64,000 bases of DNA from Aquimarina acroporae. Lineage in GTDB: Bacteria > Bacteroidota > Bacteroidia > Flavobacteriales > Flavobacteriaceae. The translations under genes were made by a program, and so were the position numbers. Within the stretch, counting starts at the first letter, position 1. Each line of letters starts with the position of its first letter. This document shows positions 1 through 13,858 of this stretch, piece by piece. The notes under the pieces are model-generated. The model saw only the letters and a list, made by a program, of their open reading frames with translations. It was not told the origin of the DNA and did not search any database. Location: positions 124,001-188,000 of the forward strand of contig NZ_JALPRE010000003.1 of the NCBI RefSeq assembly GCF_023195925.1, written 5' to 3'.

Positions 1-578
1 CAAAGCAAGGTTCGTTTGTTGAGGTTGTCCAAAACCTAGTTACAACATCTGTTTTTGATATGATTGTAATAGGAACAAAAGGCGCAACAGGTGCCAAGGA
101 ACTATTTTTAGGTAGTAATGCCCAAAATTTGATAAAAGGGGTGGACCATTGCCCTGTTTTAGTTATACCCGAAGAATCCTTTTTTAAAGACATTAGTGAA
201 CTAGCATTTGCAACCGATTTTGAGAGAATGTACTATAAATCAGAAGTTCGTCCTATCATAAATTTAGCAGAATATTATGATGCCAGAGTAAGAATGATTC
301 ATGTTTATGATGACCCAAAACTATCGCATGTGCAGCGTTATAATTCGAATTCGTTAGAACAGTATTTTAAGAACATAAAATATGATTTTCATGTCATTCC
401 TGATTTTTCTACCATAGAAAAAGCGATACAGGCGTTTTGCGAGGAATTTGAAATAGATATACTAGTAATGGTTAAATATGAACATAGTTTTATAGAACGT
501 TTAATGAGAGAGCCAGTTATTAAAAAAATATCTTTTCATACTACTATTCCTTTTTTAATAATTCCTGCAGATAACTGA
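1..578 (+). CDS. Universal stress protein, C-terminal part (5' end outside window)
   Basis: The reading frame is open from base 3, so the true start lies to the left of the window; the first ATG at position 60 is internal. The visible part holds the end of a first UspA domain, with the nucleotide-binding motif GTKGATG followed by LGSN, and then a second, degenerate UspA domain without that motif. This two-domain layout matches the full-length stress proteins at 646 and 1561. UspA-fold proteins are soluble and bind ATP or AMP in many cases; the role here is presumably stress or starvation adaptation. It is followed after 67 bases by the next paralogue. The family call is secure; the substrate and trigger are unknown. 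Confidence 0.9.
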   Translation, partial: KQGSFVEVVQNLVTTSVFDMIVIGTKGATGAKELFLGSNAQNLIKGVDHCPVLVIPEESFFKDISELAFATDFERMYYKSEVRPIINLAEYYDARVRMIHVYDDPKLSHVQRYNSNSLEQYFKNIKYDFHVIPDFSTIEKAIQAFCEEFEIDILVMVKYEHSFIERLMREPVIKKISFHTTIPFLIIPADN

Positions 579-618
579 GAATTGTCATAGTATTCCTCAC
601 GTTTACGGAATAGTTTTA
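576..618 (+). promoter_or_regulatory. FNR-like operator plus -7 box before universal stress gene at 646
   Basis: The sequence TGAG-AATT-GTCA lies at 576-587, and its TGA is also the stop codon of the preceding gene. A TAnnTTTG-like -7 box (TAGTTTTA) lies at 611-618, 27 bases before the start codon. The distance from operator centre to the end of the -7 box is 36.5 bp, the same as at seven other promoters in this window. No TTTG is seen at -33, which suggests an activator-dependent promoter. Confidence 0.6.
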
Positions 619-645
619 TATCAAGTAATTTATAAAACGACGATC

Positions 646-1494
646 ATGAAACGAATACTTGTTCCTACAGATTTTTCAAATAATGCATATAGTGCACTTT
701 TTTATGCAACTCGGCTATTTCAAAAAGAACCTTGCGAGTTTTTTATATTAAACACTTTTGATGTAAATACTCCTGGACTAACGAGTAGGCTAGATACAAG
801 TAAAGGGGATCTTTTGTATAAGCAATTAAGTGCAGAGTCTGAAGATAATCTTATCGAAATATCACATAAAATCGTGAGAGATACAGAAGATTATGAGCAT
901 AGCTTCGAGACCATTTCGGTATCTAAAGATCTTGCAGAAACCATCAATAAAACCATACGGAGTAAGAAGATAGACTTGGTAGTAATGGGTACTAAAGGAG
1001 CTAGTGGGTTAAAAGAAGTTTTTATGGGAAGTAACACGGTGAAAGTTATTCAGAAAATAAAAAACTGTCCGATACTCACTATACCTAATGAATATGATTT
1101 TAGAGTTCCTAAAAGTATTGCTTTCGCTACAGATTTTAGTCGATTGTATAGTAGAGAAGAGCTAGAGCCTCTTATAAAAATGACCGAGTTGTTTGGAGGT
1201 TCGATTCATATCCTGCACGTCAATGAAGAAGAAAAGTTAACCAAAGAGCAGGATTATAATATTACAAAACTCAGAGAATACTTCAAAGAAACAGAGTTCA
1301 GTATACATTGGGTGCCAAGTTCTGGTCAAAAATCAGAAACTATTCAAACTTTTATTGATCAAATGGGAATAGATATACTAGTAATGCTACGTTATAGGCA
1401 CAGTATTATAGAGAGCATTACTCATGAACCTATAGTTAAAAAAATAGGATTTGCAGCAGATATTCCTTTTTTGGTAATTCCTACCTCGAGCTGA
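646..1494 (+). CDS. Universal stress protein, tandem UspA domains
   Basis: This 282-residue protein begins with the typical UspA opening (KRILVPTDFSNNA) and carries the nucleotide-binding signature GTKGASG with a downstream MGSN at about residues 118-134. The second half (from about residue 150) is another UspA fold that opens with IAFATDFS but lacks the glycine signature, so only the first domain probably binds ATP. It is closely related to the neighbours on both sides and to the stress protein at 12958-13794, so these are local paralogues. It has its own promoter with an FNR-like palindrome at 576-618. The likely role is anaerobic or energy-stress survival; this is inferred from the promoter and from the family. 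Confidence 0.92.
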   Translation: MKRILVPTDFSNNAYSALFYATRLFQKEPCEFFILNTFDVNTPGLTSRLDTSKGDLLYKQLSAESEDNLIEISHKIVRDTEDYEHSFETISVSKDLAETINKTIRSKKIDLVVMGTKGASGLKEVFMGSNTVKVIQKIKNCPILTIPNEYDFRVPKSIAFATDFSRLYSREELEPLIKMTELFGGSIHILHVNEEEKLTKEQDYNITKLREYFKETEFSIHWVPSSGQKSETIQTFIDQMGIDILVMLRYRHSIIESITHEPIVKKIGFAADIPFLVIPTSS

Positions 1495-1534
1495 TAATTA
1501 TCATAGTTTTCTGTATACGTTACTTATACATTTA
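1492..1534 (+). promoter_or_regulatory. FNR-like operator plus -7 box before universal stress gene at 1561
   Basis: A perfect palindrome TGAT-AATT-ATCA lies at 1492-1503, overlapping the stop codon of the upstream gene. It is followed by TACATTTA at 1527-1534 (7 of 8 matches to TAnnTTTG), 26 bases before the ATG. The 36.5-bp spacing between palindrome centre and box end equals that of the other promoters described here. Confidence 0.65.
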
Positions 1535-1560
1535 TATTATAAATCTAAAAAACCAGAGTA

Positions 1561-2415
1561 ATGAAAAAAAAGATATTATTACCAACAGATTTTTCAAAAA
1601 ACGCTTGGAATGCAATAGTATATGCTATTGAGTTATATAAGAATGAAGCATGTGATTTTTATGTTTTAAATACGTTTAGCACAACGGGTTATGCGTTGGA
1701 AAGTATGATGGTTCCAGAACCAGGAGAGCGTTTATATGAAGAAGCAAAGGAAAAATCTGAAATTGGATTGGCAAAAACACTAGAGCGATTAACATTTAGG
1801 GATGATAACCCAGATCATAAGTTTTTTATAGTTTCTCAGTTTAACAGTCTTCTTGACGGAATTAAAGACTTAATCGATAAGAAGGACATAGAACTTGTGG
1901 TAATGGGAACAAAGGGAGACACAGATGCTGCTACAATAGTTTATGGTAGTAATACGGTTTTGATTATGGAAAAAGTGAGAAATTGTCCTGTATTGGCAAT
2001 TCCAAATGAAGCAAGTTTCCAAGAACCGAAAGAGATTGTTTTTCCAACAGATTTCAAAACTAGTTTTAAACGTAGAGAACTTCAATATCTAATAGAGATA
2101 GCAAAGATTAACAATGCAGCCATACGCATTTTACATATTTCAGAGTCTGATGAGCTTACAGAGGAACAGCAAGGAAACAAACAACTTCTGGAAGAAAACT
2201 TCGAGAATTTAGAGTATAGTTTTCATACACTTCATAATGTGGATGTAAGAAGCGGCTTGAGTGCATTTGTAGAAAGTAGAGAAAGTGATATGATCACATT
2301 TGTGAATAGAAAACATAGTTTCTTCGGCAGCATGTTCTCTAAACCAATGGTTAAGAACTTAGGATATCATTCTAAAGTTCCAGTATTAGCATTACATGAT
2401 TTTCAAATAAATTAA
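1561..2415 (+). CDS. Universal stress protein, tandem UspA domains
   Basis: This 284-residue two-domain UspA protein has the motif GTKGDTD then YGSN at about residues 118-136. The signature glycine after the aspartate is replaced compared with GTKGASG in its neighbour, so nucleotide binding may be weakened. The C-terminal domain is again degenerate. It follows the paralogue at 646 by 66 bases with its own promoter at 1492-1534, and the next gene starts 5 bases downstream, so these two are cotranscribed. Family assignment is firm; any specific stress signal is unknown. Confidence 0.9.
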   Translation: MKKKILLPTDFSKNAWNAIVYAIELYKNEACDFYVLNTFSTTGYALESMMVPEPGERLYEEAKEKSEIGLAKTLERLTFRDDNPDHKFFIVSQFNSLLDGIKDLIDKKDIELVVMGTKGDTDAATIVYGSNTVLIMEKVRNCPVLAIPNEASFQEPKEIVFPTDFKTSFKRRELQYLIEIAKINNAAIRILHISESDELTEEQQGNKQLLEENFENLEYSFHTLHNVDVRSGLSAFVESRESDMITFVNRKHSFFGSMFSKPMVKNLGYHSKVPVLALHDFQIN

Positions 2416-2420
2416 AGATT

Positions 2421-2843
2421 ATGAAAAATATAGGTATCTGGATGGATAAAGAGAAAGCGTATGTCATTACCGTAAATGAAAATGGAGAAGAAATGACTAC
2501 AATTACATCGAATATAGAGAATTTTCGTATACATGGAGGTTCTGGAACTCGATTAAAAGGAGGACCTCAAGATGTGGTACATGATAGTAAATATCTTGAA
2601 CGGGAAAAACGCCAGTTCAAAGCATATTTCTCAGAAATTGTTCCATTTCTTAATGATGCAAATAATATCGCAATTTTTGGACCAGCAGAGGCTGGAGAGA
2701 AGTTCAAGAAAGAATTAGAGCTGAATTATAAGAGTATTGCACAAAACGTAGAAGGTGTTTTTAAAGCCGATAGTATGACCGAGAATCAAACCAGAGCATT
2801 GATACGTGATCATTTTAAAAATACCAAAGAACAGATCGTGTAA
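2421..2843 (+). CDS. Small unknown protein, possibly of the bacterial eRF1-like (host-attachment) group
   Basis: The product has 140 residues and no signal peptide or membrane segment. It starts with a beta-strand-like stretch (NIGIWMDKEKAYVI) and has a central basic and glycine-rich segment (HGGSGTRLKGGPQ), then an alternating helix/strand part with IAIFGPAEAGEKFKKEL. That layout resembles bacterial relatives of eRF1 domain 1-2 proteins often annotated as host-attachment or translational-machinery proteins, but I recognise this only from the general pattern. It lies 5 bases after a universal stress gene and just before a terminator, so it belongs to the stress operon. A ribosome-associated stress role is a guess. 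Confidence 0.6.
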   Translation: MKNIGIWMDKEKAYVITVNENGEEMTTITSNIENFRIHGGSGTRLKGGPQDVVHDSKYLEREKRQFKAYFSEIVPFLNDANNIAIFGPAEAGEKFKKELELNYKSIAQNVEGVFKADSMTENQTRALIRDHFKNTKEQIV

Positions 2844-2876
2844 CGAAATTTATTATACTTAAAAGATTAAATACTA

Positions 2877-2913
2877 CAGGTAACCTAGATTTTAATGGGT
2901 TGCCTGTTTTTTT
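2877..2913 (+). terminator. Rho-independent terminator after the stress operon
   Basis: The stem arms are CAGGTAACC at 2877-2885 and GGTTGCCTG at 2898-2906, with one G-T wobble, followed by seven T residues at 2907-2913. It lies 34 bases after the stop of the 2421 gene. Confidence 0.8.
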
Positions 2914-2956
2914 ATATAAATAAATACCATTTTTAAAATGTAACTATCAGTAAATC

Positions 2957-2999
2957 TGATATTTGTCATTTTTTTCGTCAACAAGGTTAGGTAAATTCG
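2957..2999 (+). promoter_or_regulatory. FNR-like operator plus -7 box before gene at 3024
   Basis: TGAT-ATTT-GTCA lies at 2957-2968 and TAAATTCG at 2992-2999 (one mismatch to TAnnTTTG), 24 bases before the start codon. The spacing of 36.5 bp is the same as in the other members of the set. The 13 bases TTGTCATTTTTTT at 2963-2975 recur exactly at 3455-3467 before the heat-shock gene. Confidence 0.6.
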
Positions 3000-3023
3000 A
3001 ATACATCTAAAAACTATCCGATT

Positions 3024-3434
3024 ATGACAACAATACCTAGCACCGAAAAAGAACTAAAGAACATACATTTTACGACTTTAGAATGGAAATCAGGCCTTCA
3101 GTTCATAGAAGGAGAAATTCATTTCATGAATCAGTTATTGAATTCGTACGTTTTTGAGCCTAATACTCCCAATCTTTTTGAAAAATTACAAGAATTTAAA
3201 GAACGCCTGATAAAGGTTGAGGAGGAAGTAGAAAAACTTAACAATAGCATTAGAAAACATGAAAGTGAGTTAGGAGGGATATTGGAATGTAATACCATTT
3301 CTGAAGATCATTCTTACTACCAAGAACATGAATTAATGTGTGTCACTTTTGAAAAATTCTACAAACATTTCAGAATATTAAAAGCAGAAATATTTGCATA
3401 TGCCGGAGGCATATTAAAACACAGAAAAAACTAA
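3024..3434 (+). CDS. Small helical protein of unknown function, relative of the protein at 4040
   Basis: This 136-residue cytoplasmic protein is predicted to be almost all helix, with a coiled-coil stretch around residues 50-85 (many K, E and L at heptad spacing). Its early segment (W-x-S-x-L-x-F-I-x-x-E-x-x-F, residues 20-33) matches residues 14-27 of the protein encoded at 4040, so the two are distant paralogues lying on either side of the small heat-shock gene. It is transcribed from its own FNR-like promoter. The function is not known; partnership with the heat-shock protein is suggested only by position and shared promoter type. Confidence 0.75.
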   Translation: MTTIPSTEKELKNIHFTTLEWKSGLQFIEGEIHFMNQLLNSYVFEPNTPNLFEKLQEFKERLIKVEEEVEKLNNSIRKHESELGGILECNTISEDHSYYQEHELMCVTFEKFYKHFRILKAEIFAYAGGILKHRKN

Positions 3435-3448
3435 TAAAAAATGCAACG

Positions 3449-3491
3449 TGACAATTGTCATTTTTTTAAAGAATTTAGGAAAGTACTTTTA
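3449..3491 (+). promoter_or_regulatory. FNR-like operator plus -7 box before the small heat-shock gene
   Basis: A perfect palindrome TGAC-AATT-GTCA lies at 3449-3460 and TACTTTTA at 3484-3491. The centre-to-box distance is again 36.5 bp, and the box ends 39 bases before the ATG. There is no CIRCE-like or other heat-shock element nearby, so expression is probably tied to the same regulator as the universal stress genes. Confidence 0.65.
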
Positions 3492-3530
3492 ACATAGATT
3501 GAATAATAACTCATTAAAAACCTTAACATT

Positions 3531-3974
3531 ATGTCATTAATTAAATTTAATAAAAACCGATTTCCATGGATTAACGACAAGGTTGCTACTTGGTTAGATA
3601 CCGACGACTTTTTTGCAGATGACTTCTTCACAAGAGAAAGAAATCTTCCGGCAATGAATGTTAAAGAAAACAAAGGTGATTTTGAAATTGAAATTGCTGT
3701 TCCCGGTTTTTCTAAAAAGGATATCGAAGTAACCTTAGAAGATGATATGCTTCATATTTGTGCAAAGCAAAAAAAAGAAGTAGAAGATAAGAACGAAAAC
3801 TATACTCGAAGAGAGTTTAATTACAGTTCATTTGACAGAAAGCTGCAATTACCTTCTAGTGTTAATCAGGAAGAAAAGGTAAAAGCTATGTATGAAGACG
3901 GCATTTTAAAGCTGAATCTTGTTAAGAAAGAAGAAGCAAAAGAACCGCCTAAAAGAATAATTGATATAGCTTAA
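3531..3974 (+). CDS. Hsp20/alpha-crystallin small heat-shock protein
   Basis: The 147-residue product has the alpha-crystallin domain from about residue 42 to 135: NVKENKGDFEIEIAVPGF at the start, then the EDDMLHI strand, and the family hallmark A-x-x-x-x-G-I-L (AMYEDGILKLNL) near residue 123. Small heat-shock proteins hold unfolding proteins in soluble complexes without ATP. The size and layout are normal for the family, and the C-terminal tail contains an RIIDIA segment in the place of the I-x-I anchoring motif. It is flanked by two related helical proteins and ends at a strong terminator, so it is mainly monocistronic. Confidence 0.95.
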   Translation: MSLIKFNKNRFPWINDKVATWLDTDDFFADDFFTRERNLPAMNVKENKGDFEIEIAVPGFSKKDIEVTLEDDMLHICAKQKKEVEDKNENYTRREFNYSSFDRKLQLPSSVNQEEKVKAMYEDGILKLNLVKKEEAKEPPKRIIDIA

Positions 3975-3980
3975 ACCTAT

Positions 3981-4020
3981 AAGGCAGAGCAGATAAAATG
4001 GGGTTTATTCTCTGCCTTTT
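3981..4020 (+). terminator. Rho-independent terminator after the small heat-shock gene
   Basis: The arms AAGGCAGAG (3981-3989) and CTCTGCCTT (4010-4018) are perfectly complementary and run into TTTT. An in-frame ATG at 3998 lies in the loop of this hairpin, which argues against it as a start for the next gene and favours the ATG at 4040. Confidence 0.85.
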
Positions 4021-4039
4021 CCAATTAAAACGAAATCAA

Positions 4040-4483
4040 ATGAAACCAGTACAACTTAATGTAAAGTATATAGAGTGGTTTAGCCCAGAAGAATTACATG
4101 AAGTTTGTCTACAATGGATATCTGAGCTGGAATTTATAAAAATAGAATGTACTTTTTTAGACGAATTAGTAAAAAAATACACTTTAGACCTGTTGTCAGA
4201 AGAAAAGTTTGGGAAAAGTAAAGAACTAGTAAAAAACTTAGATAGAATTGAAAATATACATAAACCACTCATGGAAAAAATCAAAGCTCATCATAATGAT
4301 CTTATGATTTTAATAGACGGACTTGATCAACTTGAACGAGAAAAAAGGTATAAAGAAAACCATAGAATATTGGCGATTGAGATTAATGTTTATTTTGATA
4401 ATTATAAGGAAGTGAAAAGAAAAGTTTTTGATCTTATTAAACCCCTAATAAAACAAAATAAACAAAAACGTTTTTTGAATTGA
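4040..4483 (+). CDS. Small helical protein of unknown function, relative of the protein at 3024
   Basis: I chose the ATG at 4040 (147 residues) because the upstream ATG at 3998 sits inside the terminator hairpin. The product is charged, soluble and predicted to be all helix. Residues 14-27 repeat the W-x-S-x-L-x-F-I pattern of the protein at 3024, and both have a K/E-rich coiled-coil middle. It opens a tight run of four genes (4040, 4483, 5000, 5649) with overlaps or one-base gaps that ends with a lactate-dehydrogenase-like enzyme. No known domain is recognised. Confidence 0.75.
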   Translation: MKPVQLNVKYIEWFSPEELHEVCLQWISELEFIKIECTFLDELVKKYTLDLLSEEKFGKSKELVKNLDRIENIHKPLMEKIKAHHNDLMILIDGLDQLEREKRYKENHRILAIEINVYFDNYKEVKRKVFDLIKPLIKQNKQKRFLN

Positions 4484-4998
4484 TGACCTTAATGAAACGC
4501 ACTTTAAAAGTAGTTGTAGTATTAATTTTAGTATTGTTTTCCGGGTTTTGGATTTGGTATGAATATACCTACTCGATGGATACCGTAATTCCTTTTGAAG
4601 TAAATAGTTCACACAATAATACCAAAGTATTAATTGCTTCACAAGGAAGTAGATTTAAAGATTCTTTGGTGAAAAATATACTAAGTCATTATGAAAAAGA
4701 TACAATTTACTTTAAAGTAATAGATGTATATACCTTGTTCGCTACAAACATCGATAAGTGGGACGCTCTAGTGATCATAAATTCCTGGGAATATGGTAGT
4801 CCTCCTAAAAATGTAAAGCGATTTATAAAGAATCACCCTAATGATACAGATAAATTAATCATTCTTTCTACCGTAGGTAGTAGTCATATAACTATTAAAA
4901 ATGTCGATGTTATTTCTGGAGAGTCGATTATCGAAAAGACTCCAGAATATACAGAAATTGTGGTCAATAGATTAGACCAAATACTAAAATCAAAATAA
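4483..4998 (+). CDS. Membrane-anchored flavodoxin-like protein
   Basis: The start ATG at 4483 overlaps the previous stop by one base (TGATG); a second ATG at 4492 is equally possible. Residues 8-26 form one hydrophobic anchor, and the rest shows a flavodoxin-like alternation of strands and helices: KVLIASQGS, a WDALVIINSWEYGSPP stretch in the position of the flavin-binding loop, and KLIILSTVGS. No cysteine motif is seen. A role in periplasmic or membrane-side redox chemistry is possible but not demonstrated; similarity to flavodoxin or NAD(P)H reductase domains was judged only by eye. It is translationally coupled to its neighbours. Confidence 0.65.
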   Translation: MTLMKRTLKVVVVLILVLFSGFWIWYEYTYSMDTVIPFEVNSSHNNTKVLIASQGSRFKDSLVKNILSHYEKDTIYFKVIDVYTLFATNIDKWDALVIINSWEYGSPPKNVKRFIKNHPNDTDKLIILSTVGSSHITIKNVDVISGESIIEKTPEYTEIVVNRLDQILKSK

Positions 4999-4999
4999 A

Positions 5000-5668
5000 A
5001 TGAAAACTATTAAAACTTTAGTCTGGATAATTACAATAGTAGTTTTGAGCAGTTGCTCTACCAGTGAATTGGTTGAAAACTGGAAAAATCCTGATATAAT
5101 AACTTTTGAAGCACAAAAAGTATTAGTGATCGGGATCACCTCTAATGATGACGATCGACGATTTTTTGAAAGAAAGTTAGTTTCTGAATTAGGAAAAAAC
5201 GGGGTGAATGCCGTTAAGAGTATGGACTTTTTTGAGAAAGCCTTTACAACATCGCCAAAAACTGAAGACGAGATTATGGCATTAGAATCTAACCTGATAG
5301 ATAATGGTTTTGATGCAATTTTACTTTCTAAAGTTGTAGGAGTAGAAGATAAAGTTACCGTTGTGAAAGCCTATAGAAATTTAGATAGAACCTTTAAAAG
5401 TTTTAGGGATGATTACTATGAAAACCAGGATATATTTCATGACCAAGAATATTATGAAGAATACCAGGTTTTTCATGCAGAGTCTTCCTTGTATTGTATA
5501 TGCCCAGATAAGGACAAAGAATTAATATGGAAAGGATCTATAGATGTTACAGAGCCCGAAAACACAAGAAAAGCGGTAAGTGATTATGTGAAAGTTGTGA
5601 TTTGGGCATTGAAAGGACAAGAATTATTAATTATAGAAGAATTTATAGATGAAGGTATTGATATATAG
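5000..5668 (+). CDS. Lipoprotein of unknown function
   Basis: The 222-residue product has a lipoprotein signal peptide (hydrophobic residues 5-17, then LSSCS with the lipidated cysteine at 19). The mature part begins with a strand-helix unit (KVLVIGITSNDDDRR...FERKLVSEL) seen in periplasmic lipoproteins that have a curli CsgG-like or GNA1162-like fold, followed by an acidic middle rich in Y and E. The start codon follows the previous stop by one base, and its last 20 bases overlap the next gene, so translation is coupled. The function is unknown. Confidence 0.75.
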   Translation: MKTIKTLVWIITIVVLSSCSTSELVENWKNPDIITFEAQKVLVIGITSNDDDRRFFERKLVSELGKNGVNAVKSMDFFEKAFTTSPKTEDEIMALESNLIDNGFDAILLSKVVGVEDKVTVVKAYRNLDRTFKSFRDDYYENQDIFHDQEYYEEYQVFHAESSLYCICPDKDKELIWKGSIDVTEPENTRKAVSDYVKVVIWALKGQELLIIEEFIDEGIDI

Positions 5669-6653
5669 TGCTAAGGATTTTGAGGTTCCATTTCTGGAAA
5701 TAGCAAATAACGAAATACACCAAATCAAATATGTGCCAGAGCGTCTTACCGATAAAACTGCGGTTATGGCTTTGGGTTTTGATGTAATCTCTATTTTTTC
5801 TGCTGATGATGCGTCTTCTTCAGTTTTAGAAAAATTAAAAGATTTTGGAGTAAAACATATAGCGCTTCGTTCTACCGGATATGATAATATCAATCTTGCA
5901 AAAGCAAAAAAGTTAGGGGTAAAAGTAGCCAATGCTGCGGGGTATTCGCCTAATGCTATTGCAGAACACGCAATTGCACTATTATTGGCGTTGAACCGCA
6001 AATTAATGTTATCTCATAAACAGGTACATGAATATAACTTTTCACTAAGTGAATTGGTGGGTTTTGATCTTTACCAAAAAACAATCGGGGTTATAGGTAT
6101 GGGAAGCATAGGAAAAGTAATTGTCCAGATTATGAAAGGTTTTGGTTGTAATCTGGTTGCACATGATCCTTATGAAGAGGTAACCATGATAGAGAAATAT
6201 GGTGTCGAATATATGAGTTTAAGAGAGGTGTATCAAGAATCAGATGTCATATTTTTAAGCGCTCCTTTAAATAGTCAAACTCATCATTTGATTGATATGG
6301 AAGCTATAGCACAAATGAAAAACAACACAATATTGATCAATGTGGCTAGAGGTGCTATTGTGCATACCAAGGATCTAATTCAAGCTTTGCAAACAAAAAT
6401 GATCATGGCATATGGAGCCGATGTATATGAGTTTGAAAACGGTCTGTTTTTTTATGATCATTCTAAAAATAAACCCGAAGATGAATACTTACAGGTATTG
6501 TTGAAGCTACCAAATACTCTTATTACTCCTCATCAGGCTTTTGCAACCAAAGAAGCACTAACCAATATCGCTGAAACTACGTTTTACAATATTAACTGCT
6601 GGGAACAAGGCAAAACTCCTTCAAATGAACTAACCAAAGAATTAGTGAGGTAA
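5649..6653 (+). CDS. D-lactate dehydrogenase-type 2-hydroxyacid dehydrogenase
   Basis: This 334-residue NAD-dependent D-2-hydroxyacid dehydrogenase has a dinucleotide-binding GMGSIG at about residue 150, the substrate-binding arginine in NVARGAIV near 231, and the catalytic histidine in TPHQAF near 294. The spacing and the STGYDNI segment are those of fermentative D-lactate dehydrogenases (LdhA), which reduce pyruvate to D-lactate and regenerate NAD+. It is the last gene of the run that starts at 4040, overlapping the lipoprotein gene by 20 bases, and its 3' end overlaps the convergent transporter gene by 12 bases. Its position in an FNR-like stress region fits a low-oxygen role. The exact substrate is inferred. 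Confidence 0.88.
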   Translation: MKVLIYSAKDFEVPFLEIANNEIHQIKYVPERLTDKTAVMALGFDVISIFSADDASSSVLEKLKDFGVKHIALRSTGYDNINLAKAKKLGVKVANAAGYSPNAIAEHAIALLLALNRKLMLSHKQVHEYNFSLSELVGFDLYQKTIGVIGMGSIGKVIVQIMKGFGCNLVAHDPYEEVTMIEKYGVEYMSLREVYQESDVIFLSAPLNSQTHHLIDMEAIAQMKNNTILINVARGAIVHTKDLIQALQTKMIMAYGADVYEFENGLFFYDHSKNKPEDEYLQVLLKLPNTLITPHQAFATKEALTNIAETTFYNINCWEQGKTPSNELTKELVR

Positions 6654-7055
6654 TTTGTCCTTTAACAGACCATATAAAAATGTACCTAAGATAGCTGAGA
6701 TTATCACAATAAACATAGGAAGATAGCCAGCTCCCAAAAGAACAAACATAGGTCCTGGGCAAGCTCCTGCCAAGGCCCAGCCTAAACCAAAAATAATCCC
6801 TCCTAAAAGATACCTTGTAAGTTTCTTTTCTTTTGGGGTAATATAGATATGTTCTCCGTAGAAGGTTTTTAAGCGATTTCTCTTTATCATTTGAATCAAA
6901 AGAGTGCCGGTTATTACTGCGGTTCCAATAATACCATACATATGAAAAGAACCAAATTGAAACATCTCGTAAATTCTAAACCATGATGCAGCTTCAGACT
7001 TAAATAATACGATTCCGAAAAACACCCCAATAATTAAATAAATAATAGACTTCAT
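6642..7055 (-). CDS. YeeE/YedE-type sulfur transporter half (DUF6691-like)
   Basis: This 137-residue membrane protein has four hydrophobic segments and the conserved ALAGACPGP motif at about residues 99-107, whose cysteine marks YeeE/YedE-family proteins. Characterised relatives carry thiosulfate or related sulfur species across the membrane through conserved cysteines. It lies 4 bases after a second, longer YeeE-type gene, and such split pairs are usual in Bacteroidota. With the persulfide enzyme and sulfite/sulfur exporter next door it forms a sulfur-handling set. Transport direction and substrate are inferred. Confidence 0.85.
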   Translation of the reverse strand: MKSIIYLIIGVFFGIVLFKSEAASWFRIYEMFQFGSFHMYGIIGTAVITGTLLIQMIKRNRLKTFYGEHIYITPKEKKLTRYLLGGIIFGLGWALAGACPGPMFVLLGAGYLPMFIVIISAILGTFLYGLLKDKLPH

Positions 7056-7059
7056 AGTA

Positions 7060-7617
7060 TTAAAAGATTAAAGGAAAAATAAAATGTACCATAACTAACC
7101 CTCCGATAAAAAAACCAATAACGGCTAGTAACGATGGGATTTGTAAATTACTCAGCCCAGATATTGCATGTCCAGACGTGCATCCACCGGCATATCTTGC
7201 TCCAAAACCTACTAGCAGGCCTCCAAGAATAAGTAGTATAAGTATTTTAGGATCTTTAAGAGCATCTTCAGAAAATAATAAGTCTGGCATATAAGCTTCA
7301 CCGGCACTTTGAAAGCCTAGGCTTTTAAGGTCTGAAGCCACTTTGGTTTCTAAAGGTATAACTGTATTTAATGATAAGTAATTGTTTGCTATCGCACCTC
7401 CAATAATTACTCCTAGAACAACGATTAAGTTCCAACGTTGTGCTTTCCAATCAAATTTGAAAAAATCTGATGTTTTACCAGCACCACAAAGGGTGCACAT
7501 AGTTCTAAGGTTAGAAGACATCCCAAATCGTTTTCCCATCATTAATAAGAGGAACATAACCAGAGAAATAAGTGGCCCTGATATATACCAGGGCCATGAA
7601 TCATATATCCAATTCAT
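7060..7617 (-). CDS. YeeE/YedE-type sulfur transporter half
   Basis: The 185-residue product has about five membrane segments and the signature GGCTSGHAISGL at about residues 145-156, the cysteine motif of the YeeE/YedE family. Additional cysteines at CTLCG near residue 41 may take part in sulfur relay. It is the first gene of a two-gene unit with the shorter partner downstream. Its promoter holds a GTAAC-N4-GTTAC palindrome 48 bases before the ATG, shared with the other sulfur genes nearby. The family call is firm; the exact sulfur species is unknown. Confidence 0.88.
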   Translation of the reverse strand: MNWIYDSWPWYISGPLISLVMFLLLMMGKRFGMSSNLRTMCTLCGAGKTSDFFKFDWKAQRWNLIVVLGVIIGGAIANNYLSLNTVIPLETKVASDLKSLGFQSAGEAYMPDLLFSEDALKDPKILILLILGGLLVGFGARYAGGCTSGHAISGLSNLQIPSLLAVIGFFIGGLVMVHFIFPLIF

Positions 7618-7634
7618 GCTTTTAATCTTTTGGG

Positions 7635-7678
7635 CAAAGAAATTAAAAGCTACATTTTGAATCAGTAACTTATGTTAC
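7635..7678 (-). promoter_or_regulatory. GTAAC-N4-GTTAC operator and -7 box of the YeeE pair
   Basis: The palindrome GTAAC-TTAT-GTTAC lies at 7665-7678. On the minus strand TTTCTTTG (one mismatch to TAnnTTTG) lies at 7635-7642, and the centre-to-box distance is 36.5 bp. It is the presumed binding site of the Crp/Fnr regulator encoded at 10090-10722. Confidence 0.65.
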
Positions 7679-7690
7679 ACAGTGCTAAAT

Positions 7691-9103
7691 TTATTTTAGT
7701 GTAGTTGGGCATATATAGTCCGTAGTTTCCATGCCTACTCCTTTTATATCTTTAAAGCCACCTGCAATATCGATAAGGTTATGAATTCCTCTACTTTTTA
7801 AAATAGAAGCTGCAATTACAGAACGATATCCACCTGCACAGTGTACATAAAAAGTTTTGTCTTCGGGGAATTTCCCCAGGTAGTCATTTAAATAATCTAA
7901 CGGAGTGTTATGAGCTTTATCTAAATGTTCTGCAGTAAATTCACCTTCTTTACGAACATCAAAAATAGGAACTTCATTGGTCTCTACAATGTTTTTAAAC
8001 TCTAAAGCAGGTATAGAAGTTATCGTGTCAAATTCTTTGCCTTCGTTTTTCCAATTTTCAAATCCACCCTCTAAATACCCCAAGGTATTATCGAAACCAA
8101 CACGAGATAAACGTGTGATTGTTTCTTCTACCCGACCTTCTGGAGCGACAAGTAAAATAGGTTGCTTTACATCGGCGATTAAGGCACCTACCCAGGGAGC
8201 AAATCCACCATCGATCCCTATAAAAATAGATCTGGGAATATGCCCTTTTACATATTCATTTTGGTGTCTCACATCAAGAACCACAGCACCAGTATCATTG
8301 GCTAGAGCTTCAAAATTGTCTGGATTTAAAGGTCTTGCACCTCGTTCAATGACTTCATCAATATCGCTATATCCTTCTTTATTCATTTTTACATTAAGAG
8401 GAAAATACATAGGAGGAGGGAGTAGCCCGTCGGTTACTTCTTTTACAAATTCTTCCTTGGTCATATCTGCTCTTAGCGCATAATTCATTTTTTTCTGATT
8501 ACCTAAGGTATCTACTGTCTCTTTCATCATATTTTTCCCGCAAGCAGAACCAGCTCCATGCGCAGGGTATACGATAACATCATCAGCCAAAGGCATAATT
8601 TTATTTCTCAAGCTCTCAAAAAGGGTTCCTGCCAGTTCTTCCTGAGTCATATGAGCCGCTTTTTGAGCTAAATCTGGTCTACCTACATCTCCAAGGAATA
8701 AAGTGTCTCCGCTAAAAATTGCATGGTCTTTTCCCGTTTTATCCTTTAATAGATATGTGGTACTTTCCATAGTGTGCCCAGGAGTGTGTAATGCGATAAT
8801 AGTAATATCTCCCAATTTAAATTCTTGACCGTCTTTGGCAATAATGGCCTTAAAAGAAGGATTTGCCAATGGGCCATAGATGATATCTGCTCCAGTTTCT
8901 TTGGCCAAAGTAATGTGTCCACTCACAAAATCTGCATGAAAGTGCGTTTCAAAAATATATTTGATTTTGGCGTTATCTTCCTCAGCTTTTTCTATATAAG
9001 GTTTCACTTCACGAAGAGGGTCTATAATTGCAACCTCACCATTACTTTCTATATAATAAGCACCTTGTGCTAAACATCCTGTATATATTTGTTCTATCTT
9101 CAT
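7691..9103 (-). CDS. Metallo-beta-lactamase/rhodanese fusion, likely persulfide dioxygenase-sulfurtransferase
   Basis: The 470-residue protein has an ETHE1-like metallo-beta-lactamase domain (residues 1-250) with metal ligands in THFHAD (H54, H56, D58), H63 and HTPGH, then two rhodanese-like domains (about 260-350 and 370-470). The second rhodanese holds an active-site cysteine in VHCAGGYRS; the first has VAPEGR where the cysteine loop should be and is probably inactive. Relatives such as CstB oxidise low-molecular-weight persulfides and pass sulfur to sulfite, giving thiosulfate. It acts in the cytoplasm. It has its own GTAAC-type operator and sits between a sulfur importer and a TauE exporter, which fits sulfide/persulfide detoxification. 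Confidence 0.92.
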   Translation of the reverse strand: MKIEQIYTGCLAQGAYYIESNGEVAIIDPLREVKPYIEKAEEDNAKIKYIFETHFHADFVSGHITLAKETGADIIYGPLANPSFKAIIAKDGQEFKLGDITIIALHTPGHTMESTTYLLKDKTGKDHAIFSGDTLFLGDVGRPDLAQKAAHMTQEELAGTLFESLRNKIMPLADDVIVYPAHGAGSACGKNMMKETVDTLGNQKKMNYALRADMTKEEFVKEVTDGLLPPPMYFPLNVKMNKEGYSDIDEVIERGARPLNPDNFEALANDTGAVVLDVRHQNEYVKGHIPRSIFIGIDGGFAPWVGALIADVKQPILLVAPEGRVEETITRLSRVGFDNTLGYLEGGFENWKNEGKEFDTITSIPALEFKNIVETNEVPIFDVRKEGEFTAEHLDKAHNTPLDYLNDYLGKFPEDKTFYVHCAGGYRSVIAASILKSRGIHNLIDIAGGFKDIKGVGMETTDYICPTTLK

Positions 9104-9173
9104 TTGGTACTACTTCTTTTTTGAAAATTTTCTATCTCGGGGTCGAAATATAGTTTATTCATTAATTATTTGT

Positions 9174-9217
9174 CAAAAATAAGCCAATTATTATTTGAAT
9201 TCAGTAACTATTGTTAC
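9174..9217 (-). promoter_or_regulatory. GTAAC-N4-GTTAC operator and -7 box of the persulfide dioxygenase gene
   Basis: GTAAC-TATT-GTTAC lies at 9204-9217, overlapping the stop codon of the upstream TauE gene. A perfect -7 box TATTTTTG lies on the minus strand at 9174-9181, 36.5 bp from the palindrome centre, giving a 5' leader of about 65 bases. An alternative box (TATATTTC, 9145-9152, with TTTG at 9174-9177) is also present. Confidence 0.65.
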
Positions 9218-10023
9218 AAAACTTGATAACTTACTTCTTTGAAGATGATATAAATTCCCATTAGTAAAACGAACCATCCAAATCCTTTTTCGAGCTTTTT
9301 ACCTTGAATGAAATTGGATAGGTACATTCCTAAAAAGATTCCAGCAATAGATATCGTTGTAAATAAGAATAAAAAACTCCATTCTATAGCTATATTTTGT
9401 ACATCACCCACAAACCCAATTAAGGATTTTGATGCGATGATCAGCAGTGATGTAGCTACAGCTTGTTTCATAGGAAGTTTTGCCAATAAGACCAATGCTG
9501 GGATAATTAAGAAGCCTCCTCCGGCACCAACGATTCCGGTTACAACACCAACTATAATTCCTTCTATTAAAATGAGTACATAGTTGTACTGTATTTTCTC
9601 TTTTGGTAGCTCTTCTTTTCTGGTATTTCTTATCATTGATATAGAAGCTAGAATCATGATTGCTGCAAAAAAAATCATGATAGCCATTTCTTTGGTAAGT
9701 ATAAACTCTTCAAGACTAAAAATATATCCCGGAATTGCAGGTACCAGATATTTTCGGGTTAGGTATACTGCAATAAAAGCTGGAACAGAAAATACTATAG
9801 CAGTACGAATATGTACCAGCCTTTTTTTTAGGTTTACTATGGTGCCCACCAAAGCAGAAATACCTACAACAAAAAGAGAATAAGCAGTAGCGGTCACCGG
9901 ATTAATATTCATGAGATAGACAAATATGGGAACGGTAAGTATAGAACCACCTCCTCCAATCAAGCCTAAAACGACACCTATTACCAATGCACTGGCAAAT
10001 CCTAACACCTCTATTATTTCCAT
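9214..10023 (-). CDS. TauE/SafE family sulfur-anion exporter
   Basis: This 269-residue membrane protein has eight hydrophobic segments. Both halves carry the family's glycine motif (IGGGGSILTVPIF at about 22-34 and VGAGGGFLIIPALV at about 166-179). TauE/SafE proteins export sulfite, sulfoacetate and related anions. I use the ATG at 10023 rather than the in-frame TTG one codon upstream. It lies between the persulfide enzyme and the regulator gene and has its own GTAAC-type operator, so it probably removes sulfite or thiosulfate made from persulfide. Confidence 0.9.
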   Translation of the reverse strand: MEIIEVLGFASALVIGVVLGLIGGGGSILTVPIFVYLMNINPVTATAYSLFVVGISALVGTIVNLKKRLVHIRTAIVFSVPAFIAVYLTRKYLVPAIPGYIFSLEEFILTKEMAIMIFFAAIMILASISMIRNTRKEELPKEKIQYNYVLILIEGIIVGVVTGIVGAGGGFLIIPALVLLAKLPMKQAVATSLLIIASKSLIGFVGDVQNIAIEWSFLFLFTTISIAGIFLGMYLSNFIQGKKLEKGFGWFVLLMGIYIIFKEVSYQVL

Positions 10024-10039
10024 CAATTATTTTTTTGGT

Positions 10040-10083
10040 CAAAAATAATTTTGTGAGGAAGACAGTGCAGTAACAATTGTTAC
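10040..10083 (-). promoter_or_regulatory. GTAAC-N4-GTTAC operator and -7 box of the TauE gene
   Basis: The perfect palindrome GTAAC-AATT-GTTAC is at 10070-10083 and the perfect box TATTTTTG is on the minus strand at 10040-10047, 36.5 bp from centre to end. The box and its flanks (TTATTTTTGAC) are the same as in the persulfide dioxygenase promoter. The palindrome begins 7 bases after the stop of the Crp/Fnr gene. Confidence 0.7.
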
Positions 10084-10089
10084 AGAAGG

Positions 10090-10722
10090 TCAAATATGTA
10101 TAACTTCGATACTGTTTCTATTAAGTTTCACTTTTCCTTCGGTTTCAAGTTTTTTAAGTAATCTCGATATTACCACTCTGGAGGTATGAAGATCATAAGC
10201 TATTTGTTGATGTGTATTATGTATAATATGATCACTGGTTACTTTGTGTTTGTCTCGAAGATATTTGAGTAAGCGATCATCCATTTTTAGGAAAGCAATG
10301 CTATCTATAGTTTCTATGGCTTCTATTAGTCGTTTATGATAACTATCAAAAACAAAATTTCTCCAGGATTTGTATTTTGTTGTCCACTCTTCCATTTTTT
10401 CAACCGGAATCATGACAAGTTTTGCTTCTGTTTCTGCTATGGCTTTAATTTCACTTTTATGATGCCCTAAACAACATGATAAGGTCATAGCACAAGTATC
10501 TCCTCGTTCCAGAAAATAGAGAAGTAGTTCGTCTCCATCATCGTCTTGTCTAAGAATTTTGATAGCTCCTTGAAGAATGAGTGGCATCGATTTTATATAG
10601 CTACCAGGGCGTATTAATTCTTCGCCTTCAGAAACTTCTTTGAAGACAGCCACTTGGTTGATTTCTTCAATAAGATCTTTCTCAAAAAAGTGTCCGTAAC
10701 TTTTTTCCAGTTCTACTATCAT
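10090..10722 (-). CDS. Crp/Fnr family transcription regulator of the sulfur genes
   Basis: This 210-residue regulator has an N-terminal cyclic-nucleotide-binding-type beta barrel (to about 115), a dimer helix and a C-terminal winged helix with THQQIAYDLHTSRVVISRLLK at about 168-188 as the helix-turn-helix. It has no FNR-type N-terminal cysteine cluster, but three cysteines (77, 83, 84) in CAMTLSCC lie where cAMP contacts sit in Crp. In the recognition helix the glutamate usual in Crp and FNR is replaced by valine (SRVVISR). It is the last gene of the - strand operon that starts at 13794. It most likely activates the three GTAAC-type promoters nearby; sensing of persulfide through its cysteines is a hypothesis. 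Confidence 0.9.
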   Translation of the reverse strand: MIVELEKSYGHFFEKDLIEEINQVAVFKEVSEGEELIRPGSYIKSMPLILQGAIKILRQDDDGDELLLYFLERGDTCAMTLSCCLGHHKSEIKAIAETEAKLVMIPVEKMEEWTTKYKSWRNFVFDSYHKRLIEAIETIDSIAFLKMDDRLLKYLRDKHKVTSDHIIHNTHQQIAYDLHTSRVVISRLLKKLETEGKVKLNRNSIEVIHI

Positions 10723-10725
10723 TTA

Positions 10726-11505
10726 TTAGTTGTTTTTTAAAAGTGGTTCAAGTTGTGCTATTGCTTCTTCATATCCTAAGTTGAATACTTTATCTAACCC
10801 ACTTGTGCTAAAAATACCATGATTCACCAATTTTTTCGGTTGAATAACAATATCGCATAGCGTAAACATTGCTTCGGCATTGGGCATTGCTCTAAGATAG
10901 TATGCACGTTGCATTACATTATAAGAGTGTTTAAAATCGCTAATTTTTGGTTTTTTTATGGGGGATACGTCAACACCAATAATGAAATCACATTTTTTTT
11001 GCAGTGGACCTACCGGGAAATTATCTAAAATACCCCCATCGGCATAGAGTTCGTTTTGTATCGTTACCGGAGAAAAAACTCCAGGAAAAGCAGCAGAGGC
11101 CAATAGTGGTTTAATAAGTTGCCCGGTACTAAATACTTCGGTTTTACCTTCTATTAGATTTGTTGTAGTAACGAACATTTTTTTTTGAAGCGATTCAAAA
11201 CTATTATCAGGAAAGAAAGTAAGAAGATCGGAATAGAATTTTTCTGAATCTAAAAAACCTGCTTTTTTTCTGGTAAATCTATTAAAATTAAAGAGTGAAG
11301 TTTTTTTAAAGAAGTTAAGAATTGTTTGAGGTTCATGACCTGCAGCATATAAGGCTCCAACAAGGGCTCCTGCACTAGATCCAGAAATATATGCGGTAGA
11401 AATCCCTAGTTCTTCTAATGCTTGAATAACCCCAATATGAGCAACTCCTTTAAAGCCGCCTCCCGATAAAACTAATCCGATGTTCTTTGCTTCTTTCATA
11501 GTCAA
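10726..11505 (-). CDS. Patatin-like phospholipase
   Basis: The 259-residue protein has the complete patatin signature: oxyanion loop GGGFKG near residue 15, nucleophile serine in GSSAG near 42, and catalytic aspartate in DGG near 157. It has no signal peptide and no membrane segment, so it probably acts on the inner face of the membrane as a lipid acyl hydrolase. It lies 3 bases upstream of the Crp/Fnr gene and 5 bases downstream of cardiolipin synthase in one operon, which suggests membrane-lipid remodelling under stress. The substrate is unknown. Confidence 0.92.
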   Translation of the reverse strand: MTMKEAKNIGLVLSGGGFKGVAHIGVIQALEELGISTAYISGSSAGALVGALYAAGHEPQTILNFFKKTSLFNFNRFTRKKAGFLDSEKFYSDLLTFFPDNSFESLQKKMFVTTTNLIEGKTEVFSTGQLIKPLLASAAFPGVFSPVTIQNELYADGGILDNFPVGPLQKKCDFIIGVDVSPIKKPKISDFKHSYNVMQRAYYLRAMPNAEAMFTLCDIVIQPKKLVNHGIFSTSGLDKVFNLGYEEAIAQLEPLLKNN

Positions 11506-11510
11506 ATGAT

Positions 11511-12932
11511 TTATAAGACAGGGCTAAATACCTTAGCTATTCCCTCTTTAATTTTATGGTGCCAGGGTCTTTTTACAAAGGTATCATAGTTTAATTGAAT
11601 ACTTTGTTGAGAATCATTTAAAAAATCGTTTCTCAGAGCTACAGCAAACGAGTCATCATAAACTACCGCATTCACTTCATAGTTTTGCTCAAAACTTCTG
11701 ATATCGAGATTAGAGGTTCCTACCGATGAAACGGTATCATCTGCGACTATGGTTTTGCTGTGTAAAAAACCTTCAGGAAACAAATAAATTTTCACTCCCG
11801 CATGCAATAAACCTTCAAAATATGACCGCACACACCATTTTACGATTTTACTGTCAGACTTTTTTGATAGAAGTAATCGTACATCTATTCCGCTAAGTGC
11901 GGCTACTTTAAGTGACTCTAATATACTTTCACCAGGGATGATGTAAGGATTAGTAATATATACATAGTCTTTGGCTTCATTAATCATTGAAAAGAATAAT
12001 TGTTGAGCCGAGGAATAATCAGAATCGGGACCACTATGAACAATTTGAACGGTAGAGTTTCCTGGTTGATGATGGGCAGAGAAATAAGCAGTATCAAGAA
12101 TATCCTCTTTTTCGGTGATTAAATACCAATCCATAGAAAAAATAGTTTGTAAACTATGTACAACGGGTCCTTCTATTTGCAAGTGCATATCGTGCCACAT
12201 ACCTAGATTAGGATCTCCTTTTACATATTTGTCAGATACATTTATACCCCCTGTAAAAGCGATTTGGTCATCGATAATAATGATTTTACGATGATTTCTA
12301 TAATTGATAGAGCTTATAAATTTGCCAAAACGTATAGGAAGAAATCGATTGGTTTCGACTCCAATTTCCTGAAGTTTTTGTATGTATTTTTTACTTAAAG
12401 ACATACTACCAACTCCATCATAGATAATGCGAATTTTAACTCCTTCCTGAATCTTTTGATAAAATAAATCGAATAGTTCCTGTGTAAGCTCGCCTTCTTC
12501 AAAAATGTAATATTCTAAGTGAATAAAATGTTTTGCTTTTTTTAGAGCTTCAAAAATAGCAGTAAATGTAGCTTCTCCGTTTTTTAACAATTTCAATTTG
12601 TTGCCTGAGCTAGGTGCGAAATATGAATTTTTGGTAATTAAAGAAATGAGCTTTTGGTGTTCCAAATATTCATGTTTCGAGATAGGAGCATAATGGGTAA
12701 GTGCACGTTGTATATATGCGGTGACTTTGGGAGTATGTTTTAACTGAAAGAGTTTGTTTTTTCTTCGATTTCTCCCGAGCATTAAATATAGGAAGATACC
12801 GCCAACCGGAATTGTGAAAATAGCAAGTAACCAAGCTAATGTTTTAGTAGGACGAATACCGTTAAGCAGTAATCGTACTACAATAAAGATCCCAATAAGA
12901 ATATATACAATAATAAGAAGTGTAGATATCAT
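11511..12932 (-). CDS. cls: Cardiolipin synthase (phospholipase D type)
   Basis: This 473-residue protein has two N-terminal membrane helices (about 3-22 and 33-52) and two phospholipase D catalytic motifs: HRKIIIID near residue 215 and HSKTIVAD near 393. It joins two phosphatidylglycerol molecules to give cardiolipin and glycerol at the inner membrane. The length is normal for the bacterial Cls family. It follows the universal stress gene after 25 bases and precedes the patatin gene by 5, so cardiolipin synthesis is tied here to a stress-type promoter at 13816-13858. Confidence 0.93.
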   Translation of the reverse strand: MISTLLIIVYILIGIFIVVRLLLNGIRPTKTLAWLLAIFTIPVGGIFLYLMLGRNRRKNKLFQLKHTPKVTAYIQRALTHYAPISKHEYLEHQKLISLITKNSYFAPSSGNKLKLLKNGEATFTAIFEALKKAKHFIHLEYYIFEEGELTQELFDLFYQKIQEGVKIRIIYDGVGSMSLSKKYIQKLQEIGVETNRFLPIRFGKFISSINYRNHRKIIIIDDQIAFTGGINVSDKYVKGDPNLGMWHDMHLQIEGPVVHSLQTIFSMDWYLITEKEDILDTAYFSAHHQPGNSTVQIVHSGPDSDYSSAQQLFFSMINEAKDYVYITNPYIIPGESILESLKVAALSGIDVRLLLSKKSDSKIVKWCVRSYFEGLLHAGVKIYLFPEGFLHSKTIVADDTVSSVGTSNLDIRSFEQNYEVNAVVYDDSFAVALRNDFLNDSQQSIQLNYDTFVKRPWHHKIKEGIAKVFSPVL

Positions 12933-12957
12933 GGATCTAGAAGCATTTTCAAATTAG

Positions 12958-13794
12958 TTACATGTGCATAATTAAAAGAGGAACTCTAGTGCCATAACTT
13001 ATTTTTGAGGTTTCTGAACCCTTAAAAAAACGATCCATGAATGTCTCCTGTTTAATAAATATAGCCGTCATGTCTACATCCATTATTTGTACAAAACTAT
13101 TAATCGCTAAGGCTGTAGGCACATTAATAATAGAATGAAAGGTATGATTATTTTCTTTAAAAAACTCTTTCATCTGTTTTTTTTCATCAAATTCTGTAAT
13201 GGTAAGTGTGTCGTCTTCTTTTATTTTTAAGATTCGTAGAGAAGCTTTGTTTTTGTTTAAGATGTCCGTCAAAGGTTCTATGCCTTTGGTGACAAAATGA
13301 TCCCCATAATCTATAGCGAATAAGACTGTTTGGGGCTGAGTGAATGAATATCCTTCTGGAATAATTAATACCGGACAAGGTATTTTTCGAATCACCTTAA
13401 GTGTATTGCTGCCAAATAACACTTCTGATGCACCTGTTGCGCCATTAGATCCCATCACTATGAGATCTATGTTGTTAGCTTTTACAGCTTGTCGTATAGC
13501 ATCTACAAAAACATCATAATCTGTCAATGAAAAAAACGTATAATTCTCATTAGCATATGTTGTTTTTAGTTCATCTTCAAAAATTGATAACTTCTTTTTT
13601 ACGTCACCAATTACAGTTTGATGAATAGAAGTATTTGCTGGTGCAGACATTAAGTCATCTGTGGTATATCTTGATGCCTTTTGAACATTAAGAATGTAAA
13701 AAGTACATAATTCGTTTTTAAATAAATGCATGGCATAGTGAATTGCATTTTTTGAATTATTTGAAAAGTCAGTAGGTAGCAAAATGTTTTTCAT
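12958..13794 (-). CDS. Universal stress protein, tandem UspA domains
   Basis: This 278-residue paralogue of the stress proteins at 1-2415 starts with KNILLPTDFSNNSKNA and carries GSNGATG then FGSN at about residues 118-135 as the nucleotide-binding motif. The second domain is degenerate. It is the first gene of a - strand operon with cardiolipin synthase, patatin and the Crp/Fnr regulator (gaps 25, 5 and 3 bases). Its promoter has the best -7 box of the FNR-like set. The family call is firm. Confidence 0.92.
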   Translation of the reverse strand: MKNILLPTDFSNNSKNAIHYAMHLFKNELCTFYILNVQKASRYTTDDLMSAPANTSIHQTVIGDVKKKLSIFEDELKTTYANENYTFFSLTDYDVFVDAIRQAVKANNIDLIVMGSNGATGASEVLFGSNTLKVIRKIPCPVLIIPEGYSFTQPQTVLFAIDYGDHFVTKGIEPLTDILNKNKASLRILKIKEDDTLTITEFDEKKQMKEFFKENNHTFHSIINVPTALAINSFVQIMDVDMTAIFIKQETFMDRFFKGSETSKISYGTRVPLLIMHM

Positions 13795-13815
13795 GACTAT
13801 TTAATTTTATATAGT

Positions 13816-13858
13816 CAAAATTAGATAGCGTATAGTAGAATTAAAATGACTTTGGTCA
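13816..13858 (-). promoter_or_regulatory. FNR-like operator plus -7 box of the usp-cls-patatin-crp operon
   Basis: On the minus strand TGAC-CAAA-GTCA lies at 13847-13858 and a perfect -7 box TAATTTTG at 13816-13823, 36.5 bp from operator centre to box end and 21 bases before the ATG. The operon it drives includes the regulator that probably controls the GTAAC-type promoters, so the two promoter sets may form a cascade. Confidence 0.7.

Follow-up and report, generated by a model that had tools for sequence, protein, structure and literature searches.

Eight Crp/Fnr-type palindromes in a 64,000-nucleotide stretch of the Aquimarina acroporae genome (contig NZ_JALPRE010000003.1, positions 124,001 to 188,000; hereafter, the window) stand at one fixed distance from a TAnnTTTG -7 box of the Bacteroidota sigma-A type. 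This geometry is very well supported. We consider it very likely that its best explanation is the correct one, namely that the sites are class II promoters activated by Crp/Fnr proteins on a Bacteroidota -7 box, arranged in two regulons with regulators inferred from sequence. The eight sites fall into two regulons with different probable regulators; their operators are of two kinds, TGAY-N4-RTCA and GTAAC-N4-GTTAC.

Fixed spacing between operator and -7 box

All centres and strands of the eight palindromes were recovered as a first-pass annotation of the window had given them (Table 1). On the indicated strand, the box occupies bases 30-37 downstream of the operator centre (offset 30) at 8/8 sites, which is the constant 36.5-bp distance from operator centre to box end that the annotation had claimed; the box is exact at three sites and has one mismatch at five. 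Summed over the eight sites, 43 of 48 box letters match at this distance, as compared to 7-23 at the other offsets between 10 and 69. Random sets of eight intergenic places were scored in the same manner, taking the best of 60 offsets for every set, and none of 50,000 sets reached the observed score (top sum 33 and top box number four; observed, 43 and eight). The palindrome centred at 581.5 (TGAGAATTGTCA) is one letter off TGAYN4RTCA, and the three GTAAC palindromes are perfect.

Bacteroidota sigma-A promoters carry TTTG at -33. In agreement with the first-pass annotation, no TTTG starting at bases 3-9, the place of a would-be -33 element, was present in any of the eight window promoters. Start-site mapping in Flavobacterium psychrophilum places the box of sigma-A promoters at -12 to -5, according to excerpts of PMC9723704, and by this registration the operator centre would fall exactly at -41.5, consistent with the class II position that had been proposed. 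Between the predicted +1 and the start codon that follows, the predicted leaders span 9-66 bases, in keeping with the median of 24 bases given for F. psychrophilum in the same excerpts.

Nine perfect TGAYN4RTCA palindromes occur in the window. Four are the claimed sites and carry the box; the other five carry none, with four located in open reading frames (ORFs; centres 5132.5, 10342.5, 19229.5 and 53009.5) and one near the window end (63461.5), outside our crude ORF map. Of the many one-mismatch TGAY sites inside ORFs, six (5151.5, 39758.5, 45721.5, 49774.5, 53015.5 and 53867.5) have a box of at least 5/6 letters at the fixed offset on one strand, and we take these as background. The spacing also stands out across the host genome, which was scanned for TGAYN4RTCA-N{8,38}-TANNTTT: among the 100 matches listed of 114, a gap of 23 bases, corresponding to the claimed spacing, was found 17 times, as compared to 0-9 times (mean 2.8) for each of the other 30 gaps.

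Conservation was assessed around relatives of a receiver-Crp fusion protein that is encoded upstream of the window, in the best 80 of 518 loci. By title these loci (L014-L093) belong mostly to Aquimarina and other Flavobacteriaceae, with one from Cytophagaceae (L061) and two labelled only as Bacteroidia (L034 and L080). A box at offset 30 was found for 445 of 931 intergenic operator orientations, and each other offset from 8 to 79 accounted for 3-29, with smaller peaks at 12, 14, 19, 28 and 31. After collapse at 70% identity, 331/829 orientations remained at offset 30; the other offsets between 10 and 49 averaged 8.7. Among intergenic TGAY sites with both flanks available, 419/464 had a box on at least one side, versus 41/107 inside ORFs. 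Boxes on both sides were seen at two of the sites in ORFs and at 25 of the intergenic sites (e.g., position 6747 of L088); at the latter, one dimer possibly serves two divergent promoters. The consensus is asymmetric, with a promoter-side half of RTCAT (T in 96%) and a far half that is mostly CTGAY. The sequence becomes rich in A at base 42, the +1 predicted from a box at -12 to -5. TTTG started at bases 3-9 in 13/489 of the related promoters and at base 12 in 23/489.

Pairs at the right spacing, as compared to the sum of ten wrong spacings, numbered 387 versus 322 in 30 genomes of the family, 28 versus 55 in six genomes of the order and 95 versus 183 in another 37 from the class. One genome from another class of the phylum (G271) had 24 pairs at the right spacing versus 14 over the ten wrong ones, and had no receiver-Crp fusion at E 1e-60; another regulator seems to use the same geometry there.

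The GTAAC sites are a second case of this geometry. In 30 loci around relatives of the protein encoded at 10090-10722, GTAAC sites with no more than one mismatch were present in 106 orientations in 27 loci, of which 47 were boxed at offset 30, with 0-5 at each of the other offsets from 10 to 69 (orthologous promoters counted singly, not collapsed). The host genome contains six matches to GTAACN4GTTAC with a box, and three of these are at the fixed distance, namely the sites at 9210.5 and 10076.5 and a third, at C23:112.3 kb, that precedes a fatty-acid hydroxylase gene. The site at 7671.5, with its one-mismatch box, lies outside this count.

Table 1. Operators, -7 boxes and genes of the two predicted regulons. 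Positions are those of the window unless a contig is named.
Feature	Position	Strand	Remark
Operator TGAGAATTGTCA, TGAY type, one mismatch	576..587	+	centre 581.5
-7 box TAGTTTTA	611..618	+	predicted +1 at 623; USP gene 646-1494
Operator TGATAATTATCA	1492..1503	+	centre 1497.5
-7 box TACATTTA	1527..1534	+	predicted +1 at 1539; USP gene 1561-2415
Operator TGATATTTGTCA	2957..2968	+	centre 2962.5
-7 box TAAATTCG	2992..2999	+	predicted +1 at 3004; gene 3024-3434
Operator TGACAATTGTCA	3449..3460	+	centre 3454.5
-7 box TACTTTTA	3484..3491	+	predicted +1 at 3496; Hsp20 gene 3531-3974
Operator GTAACATAAGTTAC, GTAAC type	7665..7678	-	centre 7671.5
-7 box TTTCTTTG	7635..7642	-	predicted +1 at 7630; Sulf_transp gene 7060-7617
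Operator GTAACAATAGTTAC, GTAAC type	9204..9217	-	centre 9210.5
-7 box TATTTTTG	9174..9181	-	predicted +1 at 9169; gene 7691-9103
Operator GTAACAATTGTTAC, GTAAC type	10070..10083	-	centre 10076.5
-7 box TATTTTTG	10040..10047	-	predicted +1 at 10035; TauE/SafE gene 9214-10026
Operator TGACCAAAGTCA	13847..13858	-	centre 13852.5
-7 box TAATTTTG	13816..13823	-	predicted +1 at 13811; USP gene 12958-13794
Universal stress protein (USP)	646..1494	+	predicted target
Universal stress protein	1561..2415	+	predicted target
Protein of unknown function	3024..3434	+	predicted target
Hsp20	3531..3974	+	predicted target
D-2-hydroxyacid dehydrogenase	5649..6653	+	same strand, downstream of Hsp20 gene
Universal stress protein	12958..13794	-	predicted target
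Sulfur-transport family protein	7060..7617	-	predicted GTAAC target
Metallo-beta-lactamase + rhodanese protein	7691..9103	-	predicted GTAAC target
TauE/SafE family protein	9214..10026	-	predicted GTAAC target
Crp/Fnr-family regulator	10090..10722	-	probable binder of GTAAC operators
Receiver-Crp fusion gene	contig C23:107951-109012		about 15 kb upstream of window; receiver + cNMP-binding + HTH_Crp

Candidate regulators of the two operator families

TGAY-N4-RTCA is probably bound by the receiver-Crp fusion. D52 of its receiver and E319 and R323 of its recognition helix are invariant in 160/160 aligned rows. FNR has a cysteine cluster beside its Crp part; the only cysteines of the fusion are C29 and C51, both within the receiver match (residues 4-116), and an FNR-type cluster beside the Crp part was not found. 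The fusion matches the models for FixJ and FixK, in each case far below the cut-off. At E 1e-60 it was detected in 43 of 296 genomes of the phylum (16/30 in the family, 1/6 in the order, 26/37 in the class and 0/223 beyond).

The fusion gene follows a gene for a PAS histidine kinase with HisKA and HATPase_c domains. The solved structures closest to its PAS domain are FixL heme domains (E 1.6e-15, gapless alignment), and H66 and R86 of the kinase align opposite the FixL His and Arg, which we take to be His200 and Arg220. Within the clade of the window's regulator, H66 is present in 80/80 rows and R86 in 79/80. By these PAS residues and its kinase core, the protein qualifies as a putative FixL-type heme oxygen sensor.

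Twelve of the 17 gap-23 matches, among the matches listed, fall into a putative low-oxygen island at C23:99.8-137.9 kb that starts before the window and reaches into its first 14 kb. Its genes encode a cbb3 oxidase (CcoN/O, CcoP, CcoG and CcoS), a heavy-metal P-type ATPase, HemN, Hsp20 and eight proteins with a Usp match, although in one of these (60-578) the match covers only 37 residues. The island holds fourteen perfect TGAY operators with a box of at least 5/6 letters. An ORF could be assigned to 13 of them: five for USPs, one each for Hsp20, CcoNO (behind the small CcoS gene), the ATPase, an HMA-domain protein and a DUF1706 protein, and three unknowns. For the small proteins encoded at 2421-2843, 3024-3434 and 3998-5668, there was no Pfam match over the cut-off and no NCBIfam match at E 0.001. 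Farther into the window, positions 15914-21948 hold a molybdenum cofactor gene cluster in which MoaC is fused to a MoCF_biosynth domain (16920-17831).

GTAAC-N4-GTTAC is probably bound by the Crp/Fnr-family protein encoded at 10090-10722, which would control sulfur-handling genes. Relatives of this protein occur in 160 of 199 family genomes (E 1e-40), and its residues C77, C83, C84 and V183 are invariant in 31/31 aligned rows, with the window protein counted twice. Its recognition helix has the sequence SRVV.SRLL and lacks the E that FNR-like proteins carry at this place. Rodionov et al. link this helix residue to the operator motif, according to excerpts of PMC1274295, and the non-E residue fits that link. 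Given the invariant cysteines and the TauE, rhodanese and sulfur-transport proteins among the predicted targets, a role of the protein as a sensor of sulfur species is at most an attractive guess.

Tandem operators in other families and their evolution

Thirty fusion loci from 27 genomes of other families (L094-L123) gave two intergenic peaks, at offsets 30 and 52 (20 and 21 of 148 orientations, respectively); inside ORFs, these offsets accounted for 11 and 10 of 118. Operators with a box at offset 52 had a weaker copy exactly 22 bp on in 26/31 cases, as compared to about 0.5 at other shifts. In 34 independent further loci (L169-L202), a copy was present at +22 in 29/36 operators with a box at 52 and at -22 in 30/47 operators with a box at 30, versus 0.8-0.9 at other shifts, whereby one tandem promoter can enter both counts. 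Operators boxed at 53 have their copy at 23 in 12/23 cases; thus, the position of the near site stays at -41.5 and that of the far site can vary by one base. Outside the family, operators of the same regulator type stand in tandem at -63.5 and -41.5, with two helical turns between them. Over all 64 loci there were 96 tandem and 19 single promoters, with at least one tandem promoter in 53 loci. A strict tandem pattern matched 277 times in 119 of 295 class genomes, and its backward control was absent (0) among the matches listed. In these orders, binding of the weak near dimer would be aided by the strong far one. A few tandem pairs are boxed on both sides (G488 C94:14474-14567, G545 C54:35908-36001, G539 C9:95761-95854 and G675 C56:52439-52532) and represent possible divergent tandem promoters.

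In the clade of the window's regulator (88 loci), by comparison, 20 tandem and 506 single promoters were counted. Upstream copies of 488 clade promoters numbered eight at -22 and 12 at -23, with 0-15 at other shifts and no clear excess. A single-site class I arrangement was considered as a second architecture in the family loci and was rejected, as the small rise at offsets 51-52 (23 and 29 of 1145 orientations) came without a partner copy at +22 (0/29); outside the family, the peak at offset 52 is real but is accounted for by tandem sites.

A quick regulator tree (midpoint root, long branches L120 and L121) placed the window's fusion type in one clade (support 100) nested among the tandem users. 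Among the flavobacteria, a second group of four loci has single sites only, and in a third, of three loci, twelve promoters are single and four are tandem. Because the window's clade nests inside tandem users and the second group is also single-only, single sites look to have been derived twice in Flavobacteriaceae. Our judgement is evenly balanced on a broader scenario, a class-wide low-oxygen switch in which FixL-FixJ-FixK would be fused to one kinase and one receiver-Crp protein, most of the orders examined would use two dimers side by side (-63.5 and -41.5), and two flavobacterial lineages would later have been reduced to one strong site at -41.5.

Alternative explanations and comparison with known systems

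AT-rich intergenic DNA could supply TAnnTTTG-like boxes by composition, from which a reader might have picked the spacing, and a box of at least 5/6 letters does occur in 1.5% of cases when intergenic places and strands are drawn at random. The probability of this account is negligible in light of the random sets, the peak of 445 orientations in the 80 loci, and the recurrence of the geometry with a second regulator and in separate locus sets; chance and reader selection were ruled out by the random sets and the scans of all operators. The palindromes could also be repressor operators at which the protein blocks polymerase, as the operator overlaps the -33 region, and Crp/Fnr proteins can repress. 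We regard repression as improbable: it does not need single-base-pair spacing, yet the other offsets lie near background, and none of the eight promoters has a -33 TTTG to support unaided activity. The TGAY target set also resembles sets induced by low oxygen elsewhere, which counts against repression. In F. psychrophilum, the cbb3 oxidase rises under oxygen limitation, according to source excerpts.

Who owns the TGAY sites is a separate question. Other Crp/Fnr paralogs (FNR- or ANR-like) could mainly own the operators with the fusion merely nearby, in which case the class II geometry would be the same; we hold this to be unlikely, though a possibility of some substance. In the family, the 14 genomes that gave no fusion hit at E 1e-60 nevertheless average 7.1 operator-box pairs, as compared to 1.1 per wrong spacing, which means that such sites must be used by some other Crp/Fnr protein as well, or by fusions that were missed. 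Likewise, of the 154 class genomes in which no fusion hit passed that threshold, 34 have a tandem site, indicating that the fusion is not the sole user or that some fusions were missed. The host genome has eight HTH_Crp_2 matches over the cut-off, and the paralogs L006, L009 and L010 have FNR-like E..SR recognition helices; ownership therefore rests on neighbourhood, co-occurrence and helix residues. Nearness by itself is partly by design, since the loci were fetched around regulators. One of the 14 island promoters lacks an assigned ORF. Outside the window's clade, such a kinase lies within 6 kb in 42/71 loci (29 without), with H66 in 39/42 and R86 in 24/42, a pattern that would make heme binding likely near the window's clade and less sure beyond. 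Set against paralog ownership are the 2.5 times higher number of pairs in family genomes that bear the fusion (mean 17.9, n = 16, versus 7.1, n = 14), the tandem site in 85/141 class genomes with the fusion versus 34/154 without, the tandem promoter in 53/64 loci around the fusion outside the family (fusion-flanking loci only, with no control loci), and the invariance of E319 and R323.

With the fusion as the activator, low oxygen would free the heme-PAS kinase to phosphorylate the receiver; the phosphorylated fusion would dimerise, bind TGAY-N4-RTCA at -41.5 and touch polymerase, and the signal would end in induction of the cbb3 oxidase, USP and Hsp20 genes. These steps are drawn by analogy from FixL, FNR and CRP. 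We propose that the dimer at -41.5 would stand in for the missing -33 element and hold RNA polymerase by direct contact, and that this contact would account for a spacing that is invariant to one base pair.

The action of activators on Bacteroidota promoters, with their -7 box and different sigma factor, seems little described. The first-pass annotation had said as much, and our search of the open-licence literature agrees: by title or abstract, it found no -41.5 Crp/Fnr architecture in Bacteroidota and no FixL-like kinase with a receiver-Crp fusion in this phylum. HcpR work in Bacteroides mentions the hcp -7 region in the excerpts of PMC13370916, and the terms "transcription start" and "class II" are absent from the portions of PMC12040651 that were available. 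That the spacing holds to the base pair in hundreds of promoters, and for both families of operators, suggests that a class II mechanism can function with the Bacteroidota polymerase. It also supplies an easy criterion by which regulons can be located in genomes of this kind. The fused regulator provides a one-step oxygen-response system for study. Since a single regulator family has changed between tandem and single sites, it offers a way to test how an activation mechanism evolves.

The GTAAC regulon is closest to HcpR2 of Rodionov et al. (2005), for which excerpts of PMC1274295 give the operator GTAACnnnnGTTAC, the motif of the three perfect window sites. Position 181 of HcpR2 is Pro in most members and Ser or Gln in three species according to those excerpts, unlike the window protein, in which the place of CRP-181 (aligned to CRP by eye) is Val in 31/31 rows. 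The window's predicted GTAAC targets are sulfur genes.

Class II CRP- and FNR-dependent promoters of Escherichia coli have the activator at -41.5, over the upstream promoter element, on a dimeric palindrome. The window operators are likewise palindromes centred at -41.5 over the region of the upstream element, but here with a Bacteroidota -7 box and no -33 element. Also unlike E. coli CRP/FNR promoters, the sites lie almost only at -41.5, and the loci scanned showed no clear class I position occupied by a single site. Anr/FNR and DosR stress regulons comprise the same kinds of genes as the TGAY regulon, namely USP, Hsp20, high-affinity oxidase and HemN genes, under a different regulator architecture: DosR is a NarL-type protein, and Anr/FNR sense via an Fe-S cluster. 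The rhizobial FixL-FixJ-FixK cascade is similar in that the kinase PAS domain aligns to FixL and cbb3 oxidase genes are among the predicted targets. It differs in that the FixJ-like and FixK-like parts are here joined in one protein, which would turn a two-step cascade into one step, and in the half-site, which is TGAY here and differs from the FixK box.

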